Shown: positions 8,759 through 19,681 of the stretch, in pieces
Position numbering within the stretch: the stretch's first letter is position 1
Layout of the letters: every line of letters starts with the position of its first letter
NCBI GenBank assembly: GCA_001775395.1
Contig: MEWP01000099.1
Span: 1 to 33,828, forward strand
DNA from: a candidate division Zixibacteria bacterium RBG_16_53_22
GTDB lineage: Bacteria; Zixibacteria; MSB-5A5; UBA10806
DNA: 33,828 nt
Reading direction: 5' to 3'
Position numbers and translations under genes: made by a program
Notes under the pieces: model-generated
What the model saw: only the letters and a program-made list of their open reading frames with translations
What the model was told of the DNA's origin: nothing
Database searches by the model: none

Positions 8759-9385
8759 CTAATCATCCGATTGAGCGGGCATCGCGCAGTAGGCGGTAAC
8801 CAGATCGCCTGCCAGTCTCTCCAGACGTTTCCAGCCGAAATTAGAGTGGAGATCGATACCCATATGTTTATCGGAGAATTTGGAGCGGAGCACCATGTAA
8901 GAGATCCCGGCGCTGAGCAGCGCCAGGAGAGCCTCGATATCTTTGTCCATTAGCCAGCTCTTGGTCATCGAGAGCTTGTTGAGCAAGTCCGATTTCTGCT
9001 TTTCCCTTGTCTCTGAAAGGGAGCGTGTGAGCGCGTTTTCGGTAAATATTTCGGCTCGCATCACCTCCTGGGTCACCTTGCGACGGCGCATCTCCTTGAG
9101 TTGGTTGAGAAGGAACTCGCCCAGGATACTTCTGGTATTGTCGGTTCGGCTGATATGCCCCGATTCTCCGATCAGATCGGAAATATCGGGCCACAAGCTG
9201 GACTCTTTGGCATAGGCCAGCAGAAGCCCGTCCAGGCTGCCAAAGTAGCGGTATATCAGGGCCTTGTCGACATCGGCCCGCCGAGCGACGGCGTTGACGC
9301 CGAGGTTATTCGCTCCGCTTTGGCTTAGCACCTGCCCGACAGCATCCAATATTTTCTTCATTGTCTGGGTTTTATTACGAGACAT
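8759..9385 (-). CDS. TetR-family transcriptional regulator
   Basis: 208 residues from ATG 9385. The N-terminal helix-turn-helix is clear: ILDAVGQVLSQSGANNLGVN then AVARRADVDKALIYRYFGS, ending with the TetR-typical YRYFGSLDGLL. The ligand domain that follows is not assignable. I chose ATG 9385 over the GTG at 9400 because that GTG lies inside the Shine-Dalgarno sequence GTGAGGAGG seven bases upstream of the ATG. A 16-base palindrome 43 bases upstream of the start is a good autoregulatory operator. No same-strand partner gene: the next plus-strand gene is hdrC, 650 bases away. Ligand and targets are unknown. Confidence 0.9.
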   Translation of the reverse strand: MSRNKTQTMKKILDAVGQVLSQSGANNLGVNAVARRADVDKALIYRYFGSLDGLLLAYAKESSLWPDISDLIGESGHISRTDNTRSILGEFLLNQLKEMRRRKVTQEVMRAEIFTENALTRSLSETREKQKSDLLNKLSMTKSWLMDKDIEALLALLSAGISYMVLRSKFSDKHMGIDLHSNFGWKRLERLAGDLVTAYCAMPAQSDD

Positions 9386-9427
9386 GGGAAACCTCCTCAC
9401 CTGATCCGCACAATCCTCGGCCTAACA

Positions 9428-9443
9428 TATATCGAAAGATATA
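9428..9443. promoter_or_regulatory. palindromic operator candidate upstream of the TetR gene
   Basis: TATATC-GAAA-GATATA, a perfect 6-4-6 inverted repeat 43 bases upstream of the TetR start. Position and size suit autoregulation by a TetR dimer; the assignment is inference. Confidence 0.45.
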
Positions 9444-9986
9444 AAATGGCGCGCATAAATCGAGACAATTTCGAGAAAATCCGCAGAAAGCCGCCAGATA
9501 TAGGGAATCAAATATGGCAGTATCGAGGAAAACGAGGATATGAGCATGTCCGACTCTTGCGGGATAATTCTTGCCTTTCCAGACTGCGGCGATAGAGATC
9601 AGGCTGGAAGATCTCTTGTCAAGGTGCTATTAGAAAAGGGGATTGCGAAAAATATGTCACTACTTAGTGACCGGCAGAAATATCAGTCACCTTAGGGTGA
9701 CTTAGAATTTATATAATTGCTAATTATTACTAAACTCATTATCATTCAATGCATTAGCGGGTCATAATTGTTTGTCCTGGTTGTTATTATATTCTCTAAT
9801 TCGAAAAACGCCTACGAAATCCTGCGGCTTTTCGTTATCGAGGCTAACATGTTATTTTTGTTATTCAGGCTATGCCATAATGGCAGGATGCAGCACCGCC
9901 CCATGACCCTGCCAACTAAAATCACTTGACACAAAACCAGTGGCAACGCTACCATTTCGCGAAGTCGATAATTTTATCTTTATGCC
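9444..9986. other. long AT-rich intergenic region upstream of the hydrogenase-Hdr operon
   Basis: No gene is supported here; a minus-strand frame at 9870-10235 overlaps hdrC and has no ribosome-binding site. The region holds two spaced dyads (9656-9701), a TATAAT at 9712-9717 just downstream of them, and a TTGACA (9926-9931) with TACCAT 18 bases on. It is the largest gene-free stretch in the window, consistent with a complex control region. Confidence 0.5.
9656..9701. promoter_or_regulatory. two direct-spaced dyads sharing GTCAC/GTGAC half-sites
   Basis: Dyad one (9656-9671) is GTCACTA-CT-TAGTGAC. Dyad two (9686-9701) is GTCACC-TTAG-GGTGAC. Both are 16 bases long with the same outer half-sites, and their centres are exactly 30 bases apart, about three helical turns. 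A TATAAT follows at 9712-9717, so the second dyad would cover the -35 region of any promoter there. Likely operators of a dimeric regulator that binds cooperatively; the regulator is not identified. Confidence 0.5.
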
Positions 9987-10037: not shown

Positions 10038-10625
10038 ATGAAAGAAACCATCATGACGTTTCCCAAAAAAGAGGCGGATCTTCGCGCCGCCTTTTGGGAC
10101 CAGGTTTCGAGTTTCCCCGACGGAGAGAAGATCAAGCTCTGCCTGCAATGCGGGACCTGCACGGGTGCATGTCCCGTTTCCTATGCCATGGACATCACGC
10201 CGCGGCAGACGGTGGCGCTTTTTCGGGCGGGTCATATCGAGCGGATTCTTCGCAGCCGAACAATCTGGCTGTGCGCCTCGTGTTACTCATGCACGGTACG
10301 TTGCCCGGTGGGAATAAAGGTCACCGACACGCTCTATGCGCTCAAGAGGATCGCCATGGACAAGAAAATTTATCCGGCGCGATTTCCGGTGCATACGCTT
10401 TCGAGATCGTTCACGAAGAATGTTTACAAATACGGGCGGAATTATGAATTGGGGCTGGGCCTGAGGTATTTTTTTGCAACCGATTTTGTGAAATTATTCT
10501 CAAACTTCGGGTTCGGCCTTTCGATGATCAGGCGAGGCCGGATGGGTCTTTTTCCCAAGAAACTCAAGAGAGTCAATCAAATCAGAGCCATCATAAAAAA
10601 AGCGGATGAATTTGGAGAAGCGTGA
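10038..10625 (+). CDS. hdrC: heterodisulfide reductase subunit C-like ferredoxin protein
   Basis: 195 residues. Two [4Fe-4S] motifs: C35-x2-C38-x2-C41-x3-C45-P in LCLQCGTCTGACP and C79-x2-C82-x2-C85-x3-C89-P in LCASCYSCTVRCP. In the Hdr family HdrC relays electrons from HdrA to HdrB. The second half (100-195) is basic and helical, with KRIAMDKKIYPARFPVH as in bacterial HdrC proteins. The start has GAGG four bases upstream; a second ATG (codon 6) is possible. First gene of a ten-gene operon in which nearly every junction overlaps. In bacteria the Hdr substrate is generally unknown, so no heterodisulfide should be assumed. Confidence 0.92.
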   Translation: MKETIMTFPKKEADLRAAFWDQVSSFPDGEKIKLCLQCGTCTGACPVSYAMDITPRQTVALFRAGHIERILRSRTIWLCASCYSCTVRCPVGIKVTDTLYALKRIAMDKKIYPARFPVHTLSRSFTKNVYKYGRNYELGLGLRYFFATDFVKLFSNFGFGLSMIRRGRMGLFPKKLKRVNQIRAIIKKADEFGEA

Positions 10626-11506
10626 TGCTTGAATATGCCTACTATCCGGGATGCAGCCTCGAGCATTCCGCCAGCCCCTACGACCAGTCGATCCGGGCCG
10701 TTTTCTCGGCGCTCGGTATCGGCCTTCGCGAAATAGAGGACTGGAACTGCTGCGGGGCCACGATGTACATGTCGGTCAAGAAGATCATAGGTTACGCCAT
10801 AAGCGCCAGGAATCTGGCGATTGCCCAGGATATGGGATTGGAGGTTTGCGCTCCTTGCAGCAGTTGTTACACGATCCTGCGCAAGACCAACCGCCATATC
10901 GCCTGGGAGCCAAAAGAGCGGCAGAAGATCAATGAGGCCCTGGCCGCCGCCGGCCTTTCCTATAACACCATTGTCGAGGTTCGTCACCCGGTCGATATCC
11001 TGGCGGTCGATTTTGGGGTGGACGAGCTTAAGAAAAGGGTTAAGGCGCCATTGAAAGGACTCAAGGTGGCGCCCTATTATGGATGTCAGATAGTCAGGCC
11101 GCACGGGCATATCGACGATATCGACGATCCGGTCAAGATGGATAAGCTCTTGACCGCGGTAGGGGCTGAGCCGGTCCATTACCCGCCCAAAGTTCGCTGT
11201 TGCGGCGGCATGCTCATGACCACCCAGGAGGACGTGGCGTTGAAACTTAATCTCGAGCTCCTCCAGGCGGCCGAGGACAATGGCGCTCACATGATTGCCA
11301 CGGCTTGCCCGCTTTGCCAGATGAACCTCGAGGGTTACCAGAAGAAAATCAATAAGTCATTCAGACGGGATTTCAATTTACCGGTAGTTTATTTCAGCCA
11401 TGTTCTGGGAATCGCGTTAGGTATAAGGCCGGAGGCGATGGGTTTGGACAAGCTTCTGGTTCCGCCGCTGAAATTGAACGCCTTTGCCGAGGGGGCCCGC
11501 GTATGA
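10625..11506 (+). CDS. hdrB: heterodisulfide reductase subunit B-like, two noncubane-cluster motifs
   Basis: 293 residues from ATG 10625, whose A is the last base of the hdrC stop (TGATG). Two CCG domains are intact: C10, C42-C43-G, C78-x2-C81, and C154, C192-C193-G, C228-x2-C231. In structurally studied HdrB these bind two noncubane [4Fe-4S] clusters, where the disulfide is cleaved. Both motif sets being complete argues for a catalytically competent subunit and not a bare electron relay. Length is typical. The protein starts MLEYAYYPGCSLEHSASPYD, the standard HdrB opening. The natural substrate in this organism is unknown. Confidence 0.93.
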   Translation: MLEYAYYPGCSLEHSASPYDQSIRAVFSALGIGLREIEDWNCCGATMYMSVKKIIGYAISARNLAIAQDMGLEVCAPCSSCYTILRKTNRHIAWEPKERQKINEALAAAGLSYNTIVEVRHPVDILAVDFGVDELKKRVKAPLKGLKVAPYYGCQIVRPHGHIDDIDDPVKMDKLLTAVGAEPVHYPPKVRCCGGMLMTTQEDVALKLNLELLQAAEDNGAHMIATACPLCQMNLEGYQKKINKSFRRDFNLPVVYFSHVLGIALGIRPEAMGLDKLLVPPLKLNAFAEGARV

Positions 11507-12474
11507 GCAGCAAAGTTTATGACGGCAACGGCAATTTCAGGGTGGGAGTCTACATTTGCCATTGCGGCACGAACATCGCCAAGACCGTTGACGTGGTCCG
11601 GGTCGCTGAGGCGGCGGCCAATGTTCCGGGAGTGATTGTTTCCCGGCACTACCGCTTCATGTGCTCCGACCCCGGACAGGAGCTGATTCAGAAAGATATC
11701 AGGGAACTGATGCTTAACCGCGTGGTGGTGGCGGCCTGCAGTCCGCTGATGCACGAGCCGACTTTTCGCATGGCGGTCGAGGGGGCAGGATTGAATCGTT
11801 ACTATTTCGAAATGGCCAATATCAGGGAACAGGTCAGTTGGGTCACTGTCGATCCTCGCGCCGCCACTCAAAAAGCGATCGCATTGATAAAGGGCGCCAT
11901 CGCTCGCGTGAAGCTGCACGAAGCTCTGGAGATGAGGCGAGTGCACATAACCAGGCGAGTGATGGTGGTCGGCGGCGGGATCGCCGGTATCGAGGCGGCA
12001 TTGCAGGTCGCCGACGCCGGCTTCGAGGTTATCCTGGTCGAGCGCGAGCCCTCCATTGGAGGTCACATGTCGCGTTTCGATAAGACTTTCCCGACACTCG
12101 ACTGCGCCGCCTGTATCCTGACGCCCAAGATGGTCTCGGTCGGCAAGCATCCCAATATAAAGCTTATCACCTGGGCCGAGATCGACGAAGTGAAGGGGTA
12201 TATCGGCAATTTCAAGATTAAGGTTCGTAAGAAGGCCCGCTATGTCGACACGACAAAGTGCAACAGTTGCGGCACTTGTTACGAGGCTTGCCCAAGCCGT
12301 CCGTTCCCGCAGATGCGCAGGCTTAAGCTGGGAAAGGACATCATCAAGGAAGGCAGGGCCCTGGAGCTTAGGCATACCAGAGTGCTTGGTCCCGAATACG
12401 ACCTGACAGTTCTGACCGGAGCTCAGCCGATGCCGGAGGCCGCATTGACACCATCCGAAGGGGGTCGGCGATGA
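11503..12474 (+). CDS. hdrA: N-terminal half of HdrA (FAD-binding first half, two FeS sites)
   Basis: 323 residues, about half of a canonical HdrA (roughly 650). The N-terminal domain has the cluster cysteines C19, C21, C54 and C79 in YICHCGTN, MCSDPGQE and AACSP. Next are the Rossmann FAD motif VVGGGIAGIEAAL (about 156-167), PSIGGHMS, and LDCAACILTPKM (C201/C204). Then comes one ferredoxin motif, C253-x2-C256-x2-C259-x3-C263. After this the HdrA homology stops and a 60-residue basic tail follows. The missing part (FAD second half, further clusters) is found at 15014-16771, downstream of nuoE and nuoF. The start overlaps hdrB (ATGA). It must pair with the other half to build an FAD site; this is inference from motif distribution. 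Confidence 0.9.
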   Translation: MSSKVYDGNGNFRVGVYICHCGTNIAKTVDVVRVAEAAANVPGVIVSRHYRFMCSDPGQELIQKDIRELMLNRVVVAACSPLMHEPTFRMAVEGAGLNRYYFEMANIREQVSWVTVDPRAATQKAIALIKGAIARVKLHEALEMRRVHITRRVMVVGGGIAGIEAALQVADAGFEVILVEREPSIGGHMSRFDKTFPTLDCAACILTPKMVSVGKHPNIKLITWAEIDEVKGYIGNFKIKVRKKARYVDTTKCNSCGTCYEACPSRPFPQMRRLKLGKDIIKEGRALELRHTRVLGPEYDLTVLTGAQPMPEAALTPSEGGRR

Positions 12475-12992
12475 CAACGGCTACTATCAATCATTACGAT
12501 ATCGATAAGGCGATTGGAGAGATTGTCGAGAAGTATGAAGCCAAGCCGACAGCCTTGATAATGATCCTGCAGGATATCCAGAAGCATTATCGCTACCTGC
12601 CGGTCGACGCGCTCAAGCTGGTGGCCAGGAAGATGAACCTGCCCCTGGCGCAGATTTACGGCGTGGCGACGTTTTACAAATCGTTCAGCCTGAAGCCCAA
12701 GGGCAAACATCATATTTGCGTTTGTACAGGGACAGCATGTCATGTCAGACAAGCTATAACTGTAATCGATACTTTCGAACGCGAATTAAAGATCAAAATT
12801 GGCGAGACTACTGCAGATAAGGAATTCAGCCTGGAAACCGTCAATTGTCTGGGGGCGTGCGCCTTGGGGCCGCTAGTCACGATCGACGAGGTGTACTACG
12901 GTAATATGACTGTTACAAAGACCAGCAAGATATTGGATAAGATTCGCACGGGCTCCGATGGAGAATACGAAACTGAGGAGGAGACAGAATGA
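12471..12992 (+). CDS. NuoE/HydC-like [2Fe-2S] thioredoxin-fold subunit
   Basis: 173 residues. An N-terminal helical part (IMILQDIQKHYRYLP, LPLAQIYGVATFYKSF) is typical of the 24-kDa Complex I subunit and of HydC. The [2Fe-2S] ligands are C85-x4-C90 (CVCTGTAC) and C126-x3-C130 (NCLGAC). It carries electrons beside the FMN subunit NuoF. Its start overlaps the hdrA(N) stop (ATGA), and its stop overlaps nuoF. The C-terminal tail is strongly acidic (GEYETEEETE). HydC, HoxE and NuoE are equally possible names; the neighbours favour a HydABC-type module. Confidence 0.93.
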   Translation: MTTATINHYDIDKAIGEIVEKYEAKPTALIMILQDIQKHYRYLPVDALKLVARKMNLPLAQIYGVATFYKSFSLKPKGKHHICVCTGTACHVRQAITVIDTFERELKIKIGETTADKEFSLETVNCLGACALGPLVTIDEVYYGNMTVTKTSKILDKIRTGSDGEYETEEETE

Positions 12993-15001
12993 TCCCAACA
13001 AAGATTTTATCCTCGAAGGATCTTGACTCTCTTCGAAGCCACTTACTTAGGCAACGCCAGCAAAACCAGACGATAATCAGCGTTTGTGGCGGAACCGGTT
13101 GTTTGGCCTGTGGCTGCGAGGCGGTTCTGGGCTCATTACGCACAGAGTTGAAGCACAGCGGATTAGAAAATAAGGTCGAGATAAAGGTCACAGGGTGTCC
13201 TGGCCCATGTGAATGGGGCCCTTTGATGACCATTTATCCCGAAAAGATATTTTATATTAAGGTAGCTCCACGGGATGTTCCCCTCATTGTCGACCAGACT
13301 ATAAAAGGAGGAAAGGTCGTCAAAAAATTACTCTACAAAGACCCGATTACCAAACAAACCGCCATTCATGAAGACGAAGTGCCCTTCTTCAAAAAACAGA
13401 TGCGGCTTCTGATCGGAAACAATAACCGCATTGATCCAACGTCGATTCACGATTACATGATCTTGGGTGGGTATCAATCTGTGGCAAAAGCTCTCGGCAC
13501 CATGTCACCGGAACAAATAATCGATGAGGTCAAGAGGGCGGGGTTGAGGGGCAGGGGAGGCGGTGGTTTTCCCACCGGCAAAAAATGGGCGACATGTAGA
13601 AAAGCTCCCGGGGAACCAAAGTATGTCATCTGCAACGCCGACGAGGGGGATCCCGGGGCATTCATGGACCGCTCCCTCCTGGAGGGAAACCCACATTCGG
13701 TGATTGAGGGGATGATTATCGGCGCCTACGCGATAGGCAGCCCCCAGGGGTTCGTTTATGTTCGCAATGAATATCCTCTGGCCGCAAAAAACATTGCCAT
13801 AGCTATCAATGCCGCCAAGGACTACGGCCTTCTGGGCAAGAATATTATGGGGACTGGATTTTCATTCGATATCGAAGTCTCACGGGGAGGCGGCGCCTTT
13901 GTTTGCGGCGAGTCGACGGCGCTAATGGCCTCGCTGGAGGGGAAGACAGGCGAGCCGCGGGCCAAGTATATTCATACAGTGGAATCGGGCCTCTGGGAAA
14001 AGCCATCCAACCTGAACAATGTCGAGACCTGGGCCAATGTCCCGATCATAATCGAGAAGGGGGCCGGTTGGTTTTCGTCGATAGGCACGAAAGGCTCCAA
14101 GGGCACCAAGGTATTTGCCCTGACCGGCAAGGTGAACAACACCGGCCTGGTAGAGGTGCCGATGGGGATAACGCTGCGCGAAATCCTCTATGACATTGGC
14201 GGAGGAGTACGCGGAAAACGCAAATTCAAAGCCGTTCAAACCGGGGGGCCATCGGGCGGTACCCTAATCGTGGAGACCAGCGAACCGAAAGTTCATGCCA
14301 GCCTGGTGGCGCACGGCGATATCCATGAGGATGAGGAAATAGTCAGCCTGCTCGATCTGCCTGTTGATTTTGACGAGCTTACCAAGGCCGGTTCAATGAT
14401 GGGTTCAGGGGGTATGATCGTCATGGACGAGGACTCCTGCATGGTCGACATCGCTAAGTATTTCCTCAACTTCCTGCAGGAAGAATCGTGTGGTAAGTGC
14501 CTGCCCTGTCGCGAGGGGATACGGACCATGCTTGGTATCCTGACCCGCATCAGCGAGGGAAAAGGTGAGATGCGGGACCTGCCTCTCCTGGAGGAGCTAT
14601 CGCAGGTGATTATCGATACCAGCCTGTGCCAGCTTGGCGGCAGCGCTCCCAACCCGGTGCTTTCCACGATCAGGTATTTCCGGCAGGAGTACCTGGCCCA
14701 TATCAGGGACAAGCGCTGTCCGGCAGGGATCTGCAAGGCGCTGGTTTCGCATGCCATAGACGAAAGCTGTATCGGCTGTCACGCCTGTGTCAAGCCTTGC
14801 CCGACCGGGGCCGTGGTTGGTAATGTCAAGGAATTACACTATATAGTCCAGGATAAATGCATTCAATGCGGGGCCTGCTACCAGATTTGTAAATACGACA
14901 GCATCAAGCGCGTCAAGCGGGGGGATGGAGACACTCTTCAAGCGCGCGCCAAAGAACTTTGGCAGCCCAGAGCAAAAACCCAGGCCGCGGCCGTCGCATA
15001 G
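12989..15001 (+). CDS. NuoF/HydB-like NAD(P)H- and FMN-binding subunit with extra FeS domains
   Basis: 670 residues, longer than NuoF (about 440) and like HydB of bifurcating hydrogenases. Domains in order: an N-terminal thioredoxin-like [2Fe-2S] region (C33, C38, C41/C43, C70, C74); the FMN/NAD core with GRGGGGFPTGKKW (188-200), CNADEGDPGAF and the FMN-proximal [4Fe-4S] site SCGKCLPC with C501, C504, C507 and distal C547; and a C-terminal 2x[4Fe-4S] ferredoxin with C594/597/600/604 and C624/627/630/634. The reaction is NAD(P)H oxidation or NAD(P)+ reduction coupled to the FeS chain. The first 170 or so codons look visibly AT-richer than the rest of the operon. The start overlaps nuoE by ATGA. 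Confidence 0.94.
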   Translation: MIPTKILSSKDLDSLRSHLLRQRQQNQTIISVCGGTGCLACGCEAVLGSLRTELKHSGLENKVEIKVTGCPGPCEWGPLMTIYPEKIFYIKVAPRDVPLIVDQTIKGGKVVKKLLYKDPITKQTAIHEDEVPFFKKQMRLLIGNNNRIDPTSIHDYMILGGYQSVAKALGTMSPEQIIDEVKRAGLRGRGGGGFPTGKKWATCRKAPGEPKYVICNADEGDPGAFMDRSLLEGNPHSVIEGMIIGAYAIGSPQGFVYVRNEYPLAAKNIAIAINAAKDYGLLGKNIMGTGFSFDIEVSRGGGAFVCGESTALMASLEGKTGEPRAKYIHTVESGLWEKPSNLNNVETWANVPIIIEKGAGWFSSIGTKGSKGTKVFALTGKVNNTGLVEVPMGITLREILYDIGGGVRGKRKFKAVQTGGPSGGTLIVETSEPKVHASLVAHGDIHEDEEIVSLLDLPVDFDELTKAGSMMGSGGMIVMDEDSCMVDIAKYFLNFLQEESCGKCLPCREGIRTMLGILTRISEGKGEMRDLPLLEELSQVIIDTSLCQLGGSAPNPVLSTIRYFRQEYLAHIRDKRCPAGICKALVSHAIDESCIGCHACVKPCPTGAVVGNVKELHYIVQDKCIQCGACYQICKYDSIKRVKRGDGDTLQARAKELWQPRAKTQAAAVA

Positions 15002-15013
15002 GAGGTGAGAGAG

Positions 15014-16771
15014 ATGTCAATGATCAAGATAAAGATAGACGGTCATCAGGTGGAAGCAGAGGAGGGATCATTCGTTCTCGAGGCGGCACGAAACCTCGGT
15101 ATATATATCCCCACGCTTTGCTACTACCCCTATATGACACCGTACGCGGCCTGCCGCATCTGCGCAGTGGAGGCCGGCGATGGCAAGGGGTGGTCGAAAA
15201 TCGTCACCTCGTGTAACTACCCTGCCTGGGACGGGCTCGAGATTCTGACCAGCACTCCCCGGGTCATGAACGCCCGCCGTGTCAACCTTGAGATGCTCCT
15301 TTCCCGGTGCGCGCCGGTGCCGGTTTTGCAGCAACTGGCCGAGCAATTCGGGATAGTCAAGCCTCGCTGGGGTTCCGGCGAGGACACCTGTATTCTGTGC
15401 GGCCTCTGTGTGCGGGTCTGCGATGAAGTTGTCGGGGCGCATGCCCTGGCCTTCGGCGAAAGGGGCATTTATCGCAACGTTGTGACACCGTTCGGGCAAC
15501 AGAGCGACGACTGTATCCTTTGCGGCGCTTGCGCCAAGGTTTGTCCGACCGGCCATATCACGATGGAGGAAATAAGCAACCGCGAACTTGTCCATAACGA
15601 AATGACGCTGGGGCCGAATTCGGCCATTTCGCTTCCGTTCCGACAGGCGGTGCCGAACGTGCCGGTCATAAACCCCGAGCACTGCATTCATTTCAACACC
15701 GGTGGATGCAAGGTTTGCTCCAAGGTCTGTCCTAAAGACTGTATCAATTACGATGATACGGATACATTCGAGGAGATCGAAATCGGGGCTGTGATTATGG
15801 CGACCGGGTTCGACAATTTCGATCCCACGCCCATGAAGCAATATGGTTACAGCCGGTATCCCAACGTCATCACGGCCGAGGAGTTCGAGGTCATGAACAA
15901 CGCCGCCGGTCCGACCGGGGGCAAGATTCTCCTCGAAAACGGTGAGGAGCCGCGGGCAATTGCCATTCTGCATTGCATCGGCAGCCGCGACGAGAACTAT
16001 CACAAATATTGCAGCCGGGTCTGCTGCATGTATGCATTCAAGTTCTCTCACCTGGTGAAAGAAAAAACCAGCGCTGAGGTCTACCAGCTCTACATCGACA
16101 TCCGCAGTTTTGGCAAAGGGTACGAGGAGTTCTACCAGCGGATTCTGCATGAGGACGTCAACGTCATCCGTGGCAAGGGCGCCGAGATCGTGCCATCGGG
16201 TTACGCTCGCGGCTCCGAGGGCCACCTCCTCGTGCGGTGCGAGGATACGCTGATCGGCAAATGGCGCGAGATACCGGTCGACATGGTGATTCTCTGCACA
16301 GCCCTCGAGGCCAGGAAGGACGCCAAGGAGACCGGGCGCAAATTCAATATCTCTACCGGCGCCGACGGCTGGTTCATCGAGGCTCACCCCAAGCTGGCGC
16401 CGGTTTCGACTACCACTGACGGAATTTACCTGGCCGGCGCCTGCCAGGGGGCTAAAGATATTCCCGACACAGTCGCTCAGGGCGGCGCCGCGGCCTCGCA
16501 TGCCATGAAATTACTGTGCCAGGGGGAAATCCTCATGGACGCCGCCTGTGCCACCGTGATGGAGGAGTATTGCAGCGGTTGCCGTATCTGCAACGATCTC
16601 TGCTCATACAACGCCATCGAGTTCCTGGAGGATAAGAAGGTTAGCTCCATCAACTCGGCCATGTGCAAGGCCTGCGGGACCTGCGTCGCCGCCTGCCCAT
16701 CGGGCGCGATCGTGGGAAAGCATTTCACCGACCAGCAGATATTCGCTCAAATTGAAGGGATGCTGTCATGA
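15014..16771 (+). CDS. fusion: NuoG/HydA-type FeS N-terminus + C-terminal half of HdrA
   Basis: 585 residues from ATG 15014 (GGAGG eight bases upstream; GTG 15005 would lie in that site). Residues 1-75 are a plant-type [2Fe-2S] domain with C36, C47, C50 and C67. Residues 120-180 hold two [4Fe-4S] motifs, C126/129/132/136 and C167/170/173/177, as in NuoG, HoxU and HydA. The His-Cys cluster motif expected around 85-115 is absent; only C99 remains. From about residue 207 (PFRQAVP) the protein is HdrA: C224-x7-C232-x2-C235-x3-C239, IMATGFDNFDP, YPNVITAEEFE, CIGSRDENYHKYCSRVCC, FYQRI, and the FAD second-half motif GIYLAGACQGAKDIPDTVAQ. Two final ferredoxin motifs follow, C520/523/526/530 and C551/554/557/561. 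The chain likely links the NADH module to the Hdr module. Confidence 0.93.
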   Translation: MSMIKIKIDGHQVEAEEGSFVLEAARNLGIYIPTLCYYPYMTPYAACRICAVEAGDGKGWSKIVTSCNYPAWDGLEILTSTPRVMNARRVNLEMLLSRCAPVPVLQQLAEQFGIVKPRWGSGEDTCILCGLCVRVCDEVVGAHALAFGERGIYRNVVTPFGQQSDDCILCGACAKVCPTGHITMEEISNRELVHNEMTLGPNSAISLPFRQAVPNVPVINPEHCIHFNTGGCKVCSKVCPKDCINYDDTDTFEEIEIGAVIMATGFDNFDPTPMKQYGYSRYPNVITAEEFEVMNNAAGPTGGKILLENGEEPRAIAILHCIGSRDENYHKYCSRVCCMYAFKFSHLVKEKTSAEVYQLYIDIRSFGKGYEEFYQRILHEDVNVIRGKGAEIVPSGYARGSEGHLLVRCEDTLIGKWREIPVDMVILCTALEARKDAKETGRKFNISTGADGWFIEAHPKLAPVSTTTDGIYLAGACQGAKDIPDTVAQGGAAASHAMKLLCQGEILMDAACATVMEEYCSGCRICNDLCSYNAIEFLEDKKVSSINSAMCKACGTCVAACPSGAIVGKHFTDQQIFAQIEGMLS

Positions 16772-17229
16772 GCTTCGAACCAAAGATAATCGGATTCTTG
16801 TGCAACTGGTGCAGCTATACCGGCGCCGACCTGGCCGGGACGGCCCGCATGAAATATCCACCAAACGTCATCAGCATCCGCGTCATGTGTTCTGGCCGGG
16901 TCGATCCCAGCTTTGTCCTTGATGCCTTTAGCAAGGGGGCCGATGGGGTTCTGGTCTGCGGCTGCCATCCCGGCGATTGCCACTATGTCGAGGGAAACTA
17001 CAAATGCATGAGACGCATTCCTCTTACGCTGAAAATCCTGGAATCGTTCGGGATTGACAAAGGGCGTTTAAGGCTGGAATGGGTCTCGGCCTCCGAGGGC
17101 GCCCGTTTCCAGGAGGTAATCAAGGAGTTTACCGAGCAGATCAGGGCATTGGGGCCGTTACAACTGAAGGAATGGACCTTCGAGCCACCCAAAGAGAGCG
17201 AGCATATGATTGAAATGGGGAGGGCGTGA
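16768..17229 (+). CDS. mvhD: MvhD-like [2Fe-2S] electron-transfer subunit
   Basis: 153 residues, starting MSFEPKIIGFLCNWCSYTGA, the standard MvhD/FlpD opening. Conserved cysteines C12, C15, C41, C64, C66, C71 and C80 occur in LCNWC, MCSGRVDP, VCGCHPGDCHY and YKCMRR. In methanogens MvhD passes electrons from the [NiFe] hydrogenase MvhAG to HdrA. Its place directly after the HdrA C-terminal half and before MvhGA fits that role exactly. Start and stop overlap the neighbours (ATGA, TGATG). Confidence 0.95.
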   Translation: MSFEPKIIGFLCNWCSYTGADLAGTARMKYPPNVISIRVMCSGRVDPSFVLDAFSKGADGVLVCGCHPGDCHYVEGNYKCMRRIPLTLKILESFGIDKGRLRLEWVSASEGARFQEVIKEFTEQIRALGPLQLKEWTFEPPKESEHMIEMGRA

Positions 17230-18200
17230 TGGCGAAACCGAAACTTGCAATCTACTGGGCCGCCTCGTGCGGGGGGTGCGACATCGCCATCCTCGATATC
17301 GAGGCAAAAATCCTGGACGTGGCTGATTTCTTCGATCTTGTCTTTTGGCCGGTGGCCCTCGATTTCAAATATGACGACATTCGCCGCATGGATGACAAGT
17401 CGATCACTCTGACCCTCTTCAACGGCGCTATTCGCAATGATGAGAATTTCGAGATCGCCAGGTTGCTGCGTCAAAAATCGGTGGTCATGTGCGCATTCGG
17501 CAGTTGTGCCACCGAGGGTGGTATCCCGGCGCTGGCCAATCTCTATGACAGGGAATCGATAATCGACTACGCCTTTCACAAATCGCCGTCCGTTGACAAC
17601 CCCGATCGAATCGTCCCGGAACCGATATACAAGGTCCCCGAGGGGACAATAACGATCCCGGCCATGTGGAATACGGTCAGGTCTTTGGGCCAGACAATCG
17701 ATATCGATTACATCATTCCCGGATGCCCGCCGCAATCGGACCAGATCATAAACGTGGTCGAGGCTGTGATCGACATCCTTTCGAACGGCAAACCGCTTCC
17801 GGCCAAGGGAACGATTCTGGGCGCCACCGATAAATCGTGTTGCGACGAGTGCAAGCGCCAGAGGAATATCAAGAAGATAAAGAAATTCATCCGGCCGTTC
17901 GAAAAAGTGCTCGATCCCGACCTCTGCCTTCTTGAGCAGGGGGTGGTCTGTATGGGTCCGGCCACGAGGGCCGGGTGCGGCGCCAAGTGTGTCAGCGCCG
18001 GCGTGCCGTGCCGCGGCTGCTATAGCCTGCCGACCAATATTCGTGATCAGGGCGCCAAAATGGCCTCGGCCCTGGCGAGTGTCATTGACTCCACCGACCC
18101 GGCCGAAATCAACGCAATCATCGAGACGATCCCCGATCCGATTGGAACTTTCTATCGGTTCAGCCTGGCGGAATCGATGTTAAGGAGAGTGCAGATATGA
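17229..18200 (+). CDS. mvhG: [NiFe] hydrogenase small subunit (MvhG-like, group 3c type)
   Basis: 323 residues from ATG 17229, sharing its first base with the mvhD stop. The proximal cluster ligands are C14 and C17 (AASCGGCD), the Cys of FGSCATEGGIPALAN and the Cys of IPGCPPQSD. The C-terminal half has further cysteines (SCCDECKRQ, then CLLEQGVVCMGPATRAGCGA and KCVSAGVPCRGCY) for two more clusters. There is no Tat signal, so the enzyme is cytoplasmic, as for groups 3 and 4. It carries electrons from the NiFe site to MvhD. Group 3c is inferred from context and motifs; a tree is required to confirm it. Confidence 0.94.
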   Translation: MAKPKLAIYWAASCGGCDIAILDIEAKILDVADFFDLVFWPVALDFKYDDIRRMDDKSITLTLFNGAIRNDENFEIARLLRQKSVVMCAFGSCATEGGIPALANLYDRESIIDYAFHKSPSVDNPDRIVPEPIYKVPEGTITIPAMWNTVRSLGQTIDIDYIIPGCPPQSDQIINVVEAVIDILSNGKPLPAKGTILGATDKSCCDECKRQRNIKKIKKFIRPFEKVLDPDLCLLEQGVVCMGPATRAGCGAKCVSAGVPCRGCYSLPTNIRDQGAKMASALASVIDSTDPAEINAIIETIPDPIGTFYRFSLAESMLRRVQI

Positions 18201-19681
18201 AAGAGATCACGATCGACCCGATCACCCGCCTCGAGGGCCATGGCAAGATACATCTATTCGTGAATGACGACGGCGGCCTGGCCAATGCCTATTTCCAGGT
18301 TCCGGAGCTGCGCGGATTCGAGAGGTTTTGCCAGGGGAGGCCGGTCGAGGAAATGTGCCGCATCACGACCCGAATCTGCGGGGTCTGCCCCGATGCCCAC
18401 CATATGGCCGCCGCCAAAGCCGCCGATGCCGTCTACGGCGCTACCATACCCTCGGCTGCCAGGAAATTGCGCGAGCTTGTTTATAACGGTTTTTATGCGG
18501 GCGACCACACCACGCACTTTTTTGCGCTGGGCGGCCCAGATTTCGTGTGCGGCCCCGATGCTCCCCCAGAGGAACGCAATATCCTCGGTGTCATAAAGAA
18601 GGTTGGCCTCGATGCCGGCAAGAAGGTCATCGCCCAGCGGGCCCGCGGCCAGAGGATTATAGAGATTATAGGCGGCAAGAAGGTTCATCCTGTCACCGCC
18701 TTGCCGGGAGGAATGTCGAAGAGGGTCACCAGGCAGGAACATGAGGAGATGATAAAAATCGGTCAGGAGATGGTCGAGTTTGGCAAGTTCGCGATCCAAG
18801 TCCTCAACGACGTGGTGCTGGCCAACAAGGCCTATGTCGACCTGATCCTGTCCGATATGTACACCCACAAGACCTACAACATGGGCCTGGTCGATTCCCA
18901 CAACAAGGTCAACTTCTATGATGGCCGGGTGCGGGTAACCGCTCCCGACGGCACCGAGCATGCCAAGTACGATCCGGAAGATTATCTTGATTATGTCGCT
19001 GAGCATGTTGAGCCGTACAGCTACCTGAAGTATCCATTCCTGAAGAAGGTCGGTTGGAAGGGGTTTGTCGACGGCATGGACTCCGGAGTGTACAAGGCCA
19101 CCCCGCTGGCCAGACTCAATGTCTCCGATGGCATGGCCACGCCCTTGGCCCAGGCCGAATACGAACGCTTCTACGAAACTCTGACGGGAGACCGCTCGGG
19201 ACGGATACCGGTGCATTCGACGTTGGCTACCCACTGGGCGCGCGTAGTGGAGTTGATGTTCGCCTGCGAGGCCGTAGCCCTGCAATCCCAGGATGAGGAA
19301 ATAATATCGGACCATATTCTCGATCCGCCGACGTCGATAGTCGGCGAGGGGATCGGTATCGTGGAGGCTCCGCGGGGCACGCTGACACATCACTACAAGA
19401 CCGACAAGAACGGCATCATAACCGAGGCTAATCTGATTGTCGGCACGACCAACAATAATGCTCCCATCACAATGTCGATTAAGCGCGCCGCCGAGGGCCT
19501 GATAAAAAAGGGGCAGGAGATCAGCCAGGGGGCGCTCAACAAAATCGAGATGGCCTTCCGGGCTTACGACCCTTGTTTCGGATGCGCCACGCATTCGCTG
19601 CCCGGCCAGATGCCGATGGAGCTGGTGATCCGCGACGCCGAATCCAGAGAGATCATCCAAATTATTCGGAGGAATTGCTGA
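18197..19681 (+). CDS. mvhA: [NiFe] hydrogenase large subunit (MvhA-like, group 3c type)
   Basis: 494 residues. RLEGHG is near the start, the L1 motif is TRICGVCPDAHH (C61, C64) and the L2 motif is DPCFGCATH (C460, C463, H466). All four Ni-binding cysteines are present, so this is a true hydrogenase and not a Complex I NuoD-like protein. A 28-residue tail (467-494, beginning SLPGQMPMEL) follows H466 and would be removed by an endopeptidase after Ni insertion, consistent with the protease gene directly downstream. The start overlaps mvhG (ATGA). No hyp maturation genes are in the window. Reaction: H2 = 2 H+ + 2 e-, passed to MvhG. Confidence 0.96.
   Translation: MKEITIDPITRLEGHGKIHLFVNDDGGLANAYFQVPELRGFERFCQGRPVEEMCRITTRICGVCPDAHHMAAAKAADAVYGATIPSAARKLRELVYNGFYAGDHTTHFFALGGPDFVCGPDAPPEERNILGVIKKVGLDAGKKVIAQRARGQRIIEIIGGKKVHPVTALPGGMSKRVTRQEHEEMIKIGQEMVEFGKFAIQVLNDVVLANKAYVDLILSDMYTHKTYNMGLVDSHNKVNFYDGRVRVTAPDGTEHAKYDPEDYLDYVAEHVEPYSYLKYPFLKKVGWKGFVDGMDSGVYKATPLARLNVSDGMATPLAQAEYERFYETLTGDRSGRIPVHSTLATHWARVVELMFACEAVALQSQDEEIISDHILDPPTSIVGEGIGIVEAPRGTLTHHYKTDKNGIITEANLIVGTTNNNAPITMSIKRAAEGLIKKGQEISQGALNKIEMAFRAYDPCFGCATHSLPGQMPMELVIRDAESREIIQIIRRNC

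Follow-up and report, generated by a model that had tools for sequence, protein, structure and literature searches.

Two inverted repeats of 16 bp lie in the intergenic region between a gene for a TetR-family regulator (tetR) and the divergently transcribed hdrC, the first gene of a Hdr-NuoE/F-MvhD-[NiFe] hydrogenase run, in a genome of the candidate division Zixibacteria. With a probability of roughly 0.84, these dyads are read here as tandem operators of the divergently encoded TetR, which would control transcription from the tetR-hdrC intergenic region. As far as we are aware, not much is known about the switching of Hdr-hydrogenase operons in uncultured bacteria, and the arrangement offers for such operons a concrete candidate regulator, an operator open to testing and a residue that may set specificity. 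The window, meaning the whole stretch of DNA analysed, comprises 33,828 nucleotides (contig MEWP01000099.1), and the features on which the argument draws are given below; G123 and G127 are two other genomes of the phylum.

8759 to 9400, minus strand: tetR, a TetR-family regulator of 213 aa (Pfam TetR_N), the proposed binder of both dyads
9653 to 9656, no strand: TATG at the outer end of dyad 1, its columns invariant in the three hdr-linked loci
9656 to 9671, no strand: dyad 1, GTCACTACTTAGTGAC, putative operator O1, arms of 7 and a loop of 2, aligning with a relaxed dyad in G123 and G127
9680 to 9708, plus strand: weak promoter-like ATATCA-17-TAGAAT (8/12 matches), its spacer filled by dyad 2
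9686 to 9701, no strand: dyad 2, GTCACCTTAGGGTGAC, putative operator O2, loop of 4, aligning with a relaxed dyad in G123 and G127
9712 to 9717, plus strand: TATAAT, ten bases past dyad 2
9926 to 9955, plus strand: TTGACA-18-TACCAT, the best-placed hdr promoter candidate, 112 bp before hdrC
10038 to 19681, plus strand: hdrC, hdrB, the N-terminal half of hdrA, nuoE-like, nuoF-like, HdrA C-terminal half/NuoG-like, mvhD and the small and large [NiFe] hydrogenase subunits, a possible target operon

The dyads had been pointed out in a preliminary description of this DNA, and their letters, coordinates, common GTCAC/GTGAC ends, 16-bp length and centre-to-centre distance of 30 bp were all correct on re-reading; the arms of dyad 2 also reach 7 if the flanking A/T at 9685 and 9702 is included. 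The same description placed them exactly three helical turns apart and took this as a sign of cooperative binding. However, 30 bp amounts to three turns only at 10.0 bp per turn, and at 10.5 bp per turn it corresponds to 2.86 turns, about 50 degrees off. Nor does the argument for cooperativity survive comparison: start-to-start spacing in related pairs varies between 29 and 33 bp (30, 29 and 33 bp), the sites on an Agrobacterium plasmid are spaced by 24, 23 and 56 bp, one homologue (in G521) has a single site before its gene, and the available part of a modelling study of TetR itself sees nothing to indicate that its two operators are bound cooperatively (PMC3037858). Fixed helical phasing of the dyads is not supported.

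A scan of the whole assembly (3,858,847 bases, 96% complete) returned two perfect GTCAC-N6-GTGAC sites, which are dyads 1 and 2. When one mismatch was allowed, 38 sites were found genome-wide versus 35 for a reversed control pattern, and hence a wider regulon of this form is not indicated. This suggests that the dyads would serve as a local operator rather than as part of a GTCAC-N6-GTGAC regulon.

Within the phylum, only the window's own genome, one of 132, has the strict dyad pair. A relaxed form of the pair (GTNAC-N6-GTNAC, N12-16, GTNAC-N6-GTNAC) was found in 3 of 129 genomes, namely the window's own, G123 and G127, while the reversed control was found in none of the 129. These three are also the only ones of the 129 with a TetR orthologue at E <=1e-8 (50 and 48% identity for the G123 and G127 proteins). 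The divergent linkage of tetR and hdrC is kept in all three sampled phylum genomes with the orthologue, and in each the relaxed pair lies between the two genes, as GTAACCAATGGGTAAC and GTTACCGTATGGTTAC, 30 bp apart, in G123 and as GTAACCATCTGGTGAC and GTTACTATCCGGTGAC, 29 bp apart, in G127; the dyads of these two loci fit the relaxed motif only. Coincidence of two sets of three among 129 would be expected once in 349,504 if random, a figure that ignores kinship, G123 and G127 belonging to the same family and the three operons to one clade. In a tree of HdrC+HdrB built from 20 chosen rows (G015, G038 and most of the distant loci being left out), the hdr operons that carry tetR fall together on one side of a branch, with a support of 94/96 that narrowly misses the tool's mark of 95 and 80. 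Part of the co-occurrence of tetR and dyads is therefore common descent, and the same topology indicates a probable single, joint gain of tetR and dyads within this set.

In a three-way alignment of the intergenic regions the dyad block is the best conserved stretch, with 27 of 57 columns invariant; no stretch elsewhere exceeds 16, and 60 alignments of Markov-resampled sequences reach 20 at most. In a comparison of G123 and G127 alone the block is unremarkable (35 of 57 columns identical versus 34 elsewhere). Six close hdr operons lacking tetR (G067, G086, G015, G012, G021 and G027) have no relaxed dyad within 800 bp of hdrC; G038 stands outside this count, its contig ending inside hdrB. Conservation of the dyads upstream of hdr genes in relatives, a point raised in the preliminary description, accordingly holds in relaxed form for operons that carry tetR and fails for the tested operons that do not. 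A wider scan for strict dyads (<=1 mismatch, gaps 3-9) within 600 bp upstream of hdrC found no pair besides the window's in 100 of 111 loci, the remaining loci having no hdrC match at E 1e-20; two of the 100 rows are the window itself, L054 and L057 have no usable upstream DNA and several represent the same place twice. Seven rows besides the window had one isolated one-mismatch match. When the window's intergenic DNA was used as a query, it matched one of 58 relatives, which was itself.

Homologues outside the phylum carry similar sites. Among the genomes of 20 of 80 other hdr loci, a TetR homologue was present in one, G137, where it lies on a different contig from the hdr locus and adjoins ispG (GcpE), dxs and ispH (LytB). 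Directly before the start of this tetR stand GTCACTGATAAGTGAC and GTCACTGGTCGGTGAT, 33 bp apart, the only sites with <=1 mismatch within 12 kb, and the first of them plus one base fills the spacer of the coding-strand sequence TTGACA-17-TATATT (11/12 matches). G137 is itself the only one of 39 genomes of its phylum with a homologue. In 396 genomes of the phylum of G141, with at most seven candidates scored per genome, two homologues were found among the matches listed, in G521 and G404. In G521, GTCACTGTGTGGTGAC before tetR fills the spacer of TTGACA-17-TACTGT (9/12), and a dyad between promoter-like -35 and -10 elements, as in G137 and G521, has the placement of a repressor site. In G404 there is no dyad upstream of tetR, the start of which overlaps the end of the preceding ORF.

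A second perfect dyad of G521, GTCACCCATTGGTGAC (L158 6540-6555), lies 18 bases before a plausible ATG (6574) of the ORF that follows tetR, which makes this ORF a possible second target of the G521 homologue. An AGGAG-like stretch precedes this ATG, the listed ORF may instead start upstream of the dyad, and the predicted protein has by eye a signal-peptide-like start and no Pfam match.

Searches of plasmids returned two records for the G521 protein, three for the window protein and, for the Agrobacterium protein, only itself. The homologue on a plasmid of Agrobacterium sp. RAC06 is 35% identical to that of G521 and 29% to the window TetR, and four TCACY-N4-RGTGA cores occur in the adjacent 147-bp divergent intergenic region. 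Homologues on Chryseobacterium and Spirosoma plasmids (~26-29%) have no dyad upstream in strict or relaxed form. The core thus lies within 140 bp of the homologue's own tetR start twice in G137, once in G521 and four times on the Agrobacterium plasmid; among nine homologues including that of the window, four have the strict core (9 sites), two the relaxed form only and three nothing. For comparison, 0-0.0025 strict cores are expected per region of 665-700 bp, and the background is four sites in 926,372 bp from 138 other, partly overlapping, loci. As suggested here, the operator of a TetR subfamily may be assignable by comparing self-regulated homologues across phyla.

Four of these proteins (window, G137, G521 and G404) have VDK in the recognition helix and three (G123, G127 and Spirosoma) have VSK, while the Agrobacterium homologue has IDK and that of Chryseobacterium LHRK. 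Position 3 of the half-site is C in 12 of 12 half-sites of the VDK group (window, G137 and G521) versus 2 of 8 in the VSK group (G123 and G127), in a small sample in which half-sites from one genome are not independent and the VDK group was found by GTCAC-based scans; all 20 half-sites listed have a pyrimidine at position 6. The Spirosoma homologue, with its VSK helix, has neither the strict nor the relaxed form. The correlation between helix and half-site is what would be expected from direct readout by TetR, and counts as a lead, not as proof.

The window TetR matches the TetR_N helix-turn-helix (PF00440) at E 2.4e-10, with 40.5 bits against a cut-off of 24. Its start codon is GTG, with an ATG at codon 6 (9385). 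Seven named NCBIfam equivalogs matched it, all far under their cut-offs, the best being BetI (28 bits versus 201, over residues 15-64), and a search of PDB sequences gave one match at 1e-6, to the helix-turn-helix region of 3vuq. The predicted structure is all helical, but the mean pLDDT is 56.

In the proposed mechanism, one TetR dimer would sit on each 16-bp site, with the consensus GTCACY-N4-RGTGAC and the core TCACY-N4-RGTGA. Binding of TetR to the dyads is judged very likely and autoregulation of tetR only slightly less so, and in the simplest model TetR on the dyads would repress its own gene, the most likely effect. Several lines of comparison point this way: the co-occurrence of sites and TetR in the phylum, the tetR-less operons without sites, the cores before homologues and the promoter spacers of G137 and G521. 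The preliminary description had assigned the dyads to an unassigned regulator of the hydrogenase-Hdr operon or of tetR; that they are regulator sites tied to the tetR-hdr divergent region is supported, while co-occurrence, the homologues in other phyla and the helix correlation now point to TetR as the regulator.

Promoter-like sequences in the region are less telling than those of G137 and G521, as at least 8 of 12 matches are reached 13 times in the window's intergenic region and 19 and 22 times in the other two, and the best elements flanking each dyad in the window, G123 and G127 match at 6-8 of 12 positions, none being strong. On the minus strand, CATATT (9656-9651) may serve tetR as a weak -10 element, dyad 1 then lying in the spacer, a reading made by eye and with weak flank scores; its counterpart in G123 and G127 is CATAAA. 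The plus-strand ATATCA-17-TAGAAT around dyad 2 is not conserved in these two genomes, and its geometry is that seen before tetR in G137 and G521. As for the TATAAT after dyad 2, its position was given correctly, but reading it as a promoter is not supported: by reading of the sequence, no hexamer at 16-18 bp agrees with TTGACA at more than 2 of 6 positions, and neither G123 nor G127 has an equivalent at the aligned place.

Whether the dyads also act directly on the hdr operon is an evenly balanced question, in view of the distances and of a survey of widely spaced pairs in Streptomyces. Across the three hdr-linked loci, the distance from the pair is ~242-293 bp to the start of tetR and ~336-382 bp to hdrC. 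The hdr promoter candidate is conserved in position (in G123 it is TTGACG-16-TAGATT at -121, in G127 it is TTGACC-16-TAGATT at -118), and it is separated from the dyad pair by 225-262 bp, too far for a simple steric block. Direct control would need a second upstream promoter, looping or activation, and it is plausible that a small ligand would relieve or impose such control of the hydrogenase-Hdr genes. The intergenic regions of the three loci (637 bp in the window, 721 and 665 bp in the other two) fall outside the <200 bp range in which neighbour control was seen according to the available text of the Streptomyces survey, where three of four TetR-type regulators with >200 bp did not regulate their divergent neighbour and the fourth activated it (PMC3511530).

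The strongest alternative, to which a considerable though less than even probability is given, is that the dyads serve tetR autoregulation only and that hdr runs from its own promoter near 9926 without being a target. Besides the wide spacing, the pair lies closer to tetR than to hdrC in each of the three loci; the sites of G137, G521 and the Agrobacterium plasmid occur at tetR with no hdr gene in the stretches covered around it; and the hdr operons of G012 and G021 have TTGACA-type promoter-like sequences at -155/-152 without tetR and without dyads. Against this, tetR and hdrC have stayed divergent neighbours in two families, at 46-48% identity of TetR, while the genes beyond tetR differ (an ABC transporter in G123, a dockerin/thrombospondin-repeat protein in G127), and sites also occur by a second gene in G521 and on the Agrobacterium plasmid. 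Beyond the reading of the dyads as tandem TetR operators, a broader scenario is tentatively proposed, which is doubtful as a whole: a TetR subfamily with an (I/V)DK helix in four bacterial phyla would read one operator, TCACY-N4-RGTGA, and would in one Zixibacteria clade have been recruited to serve specifically as the switch of a Hdr-NuoEF-[NiFe] hydrogenase operon of the electron-bifurcating type, with action over >200 bp through looping, a long leader or activation, and with the D-to-S change in the helix having re-tuned operator position 3.

Binding of the dyads by an unrelated redox or metal sensor is improbable. The operon is redox-linked, and Rex is a usual suspect at redox operons. That the dyads are unlike Rex sites, as stated in the preliminary description, was confirmed: they have TGA/TCA elements in common with TTGTGA-N6-TCACAA, but the half-site order is reversed, TCAC...GTGA in the dyads versus GTGA...TCAC. 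GTCAC/GTGAC or GTNAC-like half-sites do appear in predicted sites of delta-proteobacteria, CGGTCACG-N14-CGTGACCG for ModE and GTGTTAC-N13/14-GTAACAC for NikR; however, in the part of that work available, their spacers are 13-14 bp rather than 6 (PMC545781). Sites of this kind moreover precede TetR homologues in other phyla with no hdr adjoining, and the six hdr operons without tetR are also without dyads.

Even less probable is that the dyads work at the RNA level, as hairpins forming paired terminators or attenuators, and not as DNA sites. In a simple scan both, with weak T tails, were terminator-like on the minus strand, two being found where shuffles gave 0.7 on average. However, position 3 pairs A/A and T/T in G123 and A/G and T/G in G127, changes without compensation on the opposite arm, which break or weaken the stems but leave the half-sites recognisable; the window has no Rfam match, and in G137 and G521 a dyad lies between promoter-like -35 and -10 elements, where it would be untranscribed from that promoter. 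Chance palindromes are very improbable: a matched pair (two dyads with arms >=6, loops <=4 and an identical outer 5-mer within 60 bp) did arise in 3 of 2000 dinucleotide shuffles of the window's intergenic region, but conservation and co-occurrence with tetR speak against chance.

Among known systems, NrdR boxes are tandem 16-bp palindromes about three turns apart, an architecture similar to that of the dyads, and the tet operators are likewise 30 bp apart from centre to centre, although their sequence differs from that of the dyads. In TetR/tetA, as far as the available text describes it, the regulator gene and tetA are divergent and flank two 15-bp palindromes (PMC3511530), and the window resembles this in having a TetR-family gene divergent from its neighbour and two palindromic putative operators in the intergenic DNA. 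It is unlike TetR/tetA in its 637-bp intergenic region and in its neighbour, which belongs to electron transfer and hydrogenase rather than being an efflux pump. QacR, CgmR, MS6564 and CprB place two dimers on one DNA stretch, as is proposed here; they recognise, according to the accessible portion of the source, one stretch of 22-32 bp (PMC4150764), whereas here two separate full dyads lie 30 bp apart, and G521 has a single dyad before tetR. Among open-licence PMC papers none was found that pairs the TetR family with hydrogenase and heterodisulfide reductase, and none on GTCAC/GTGAC TetR operator palindromes was recognisable, by title or abstract start, as concerning this subfamily.

Other elements of the window and its genome were also considered. 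A perfect dyad, TATATC-GAAA-GATATA, lies at 9428-9443, close before the tetR start; it was rejected as a TetR operator, no dyad of that form occurring upstream of tetR in G123 or G127. A 49-aa ORF running from 9546 through dyad 1 into dyad 2 was rejected as a gene, having no match in Pfam or NCBIfam and, besides itself, only matches at E >0.1 in 58 relatives. A genome-wide excess of dyads (22 versus 6) is largely due to a separate 18-bp family, GTCAC-N8-GTGAC, with copies such as GTCACAAT-N2-ATTGTGAC and GTCACAGC-N2-GCTGTGAC on contigs C97, C121, C165, C68, C61, C118, C12, C17, C46, C75 and C53 of the window's genome, G000 (L163-L174). Many of these copies are extended by matching flanks, for example GCGT/CCGC or GGGT/CCC, and the family looks like a REP-type repetitive palindrome distinct from the window motif.

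Several hdr genes show irregularities. In G123 the homology of hdrC (L122 7154-7738) extends over 195 aa while the ORF stops after 121 aa, either an interrupted gene or a sequence error, and in G015 the homology of hdrB (L148 4672-5537) falls into two pieces, residues 1-106 and 109-289, which suggests a frameshift or an assembly error. HdrA of the window is apparently split, with 11503-12474 matching HdrA2 positions 1-256 and 15005-16771 matching positions 262-640; the second part is preceded by a NuoG/HoxU-like front, and the nuoE-like and nuoF-like genes lie between the parts. The hydrogenase large subunit (18197-19681) is one continuous protein that matches VhuA over residues 1-437 and the VhuU selenoprotein-subunit model over residues 442-468.
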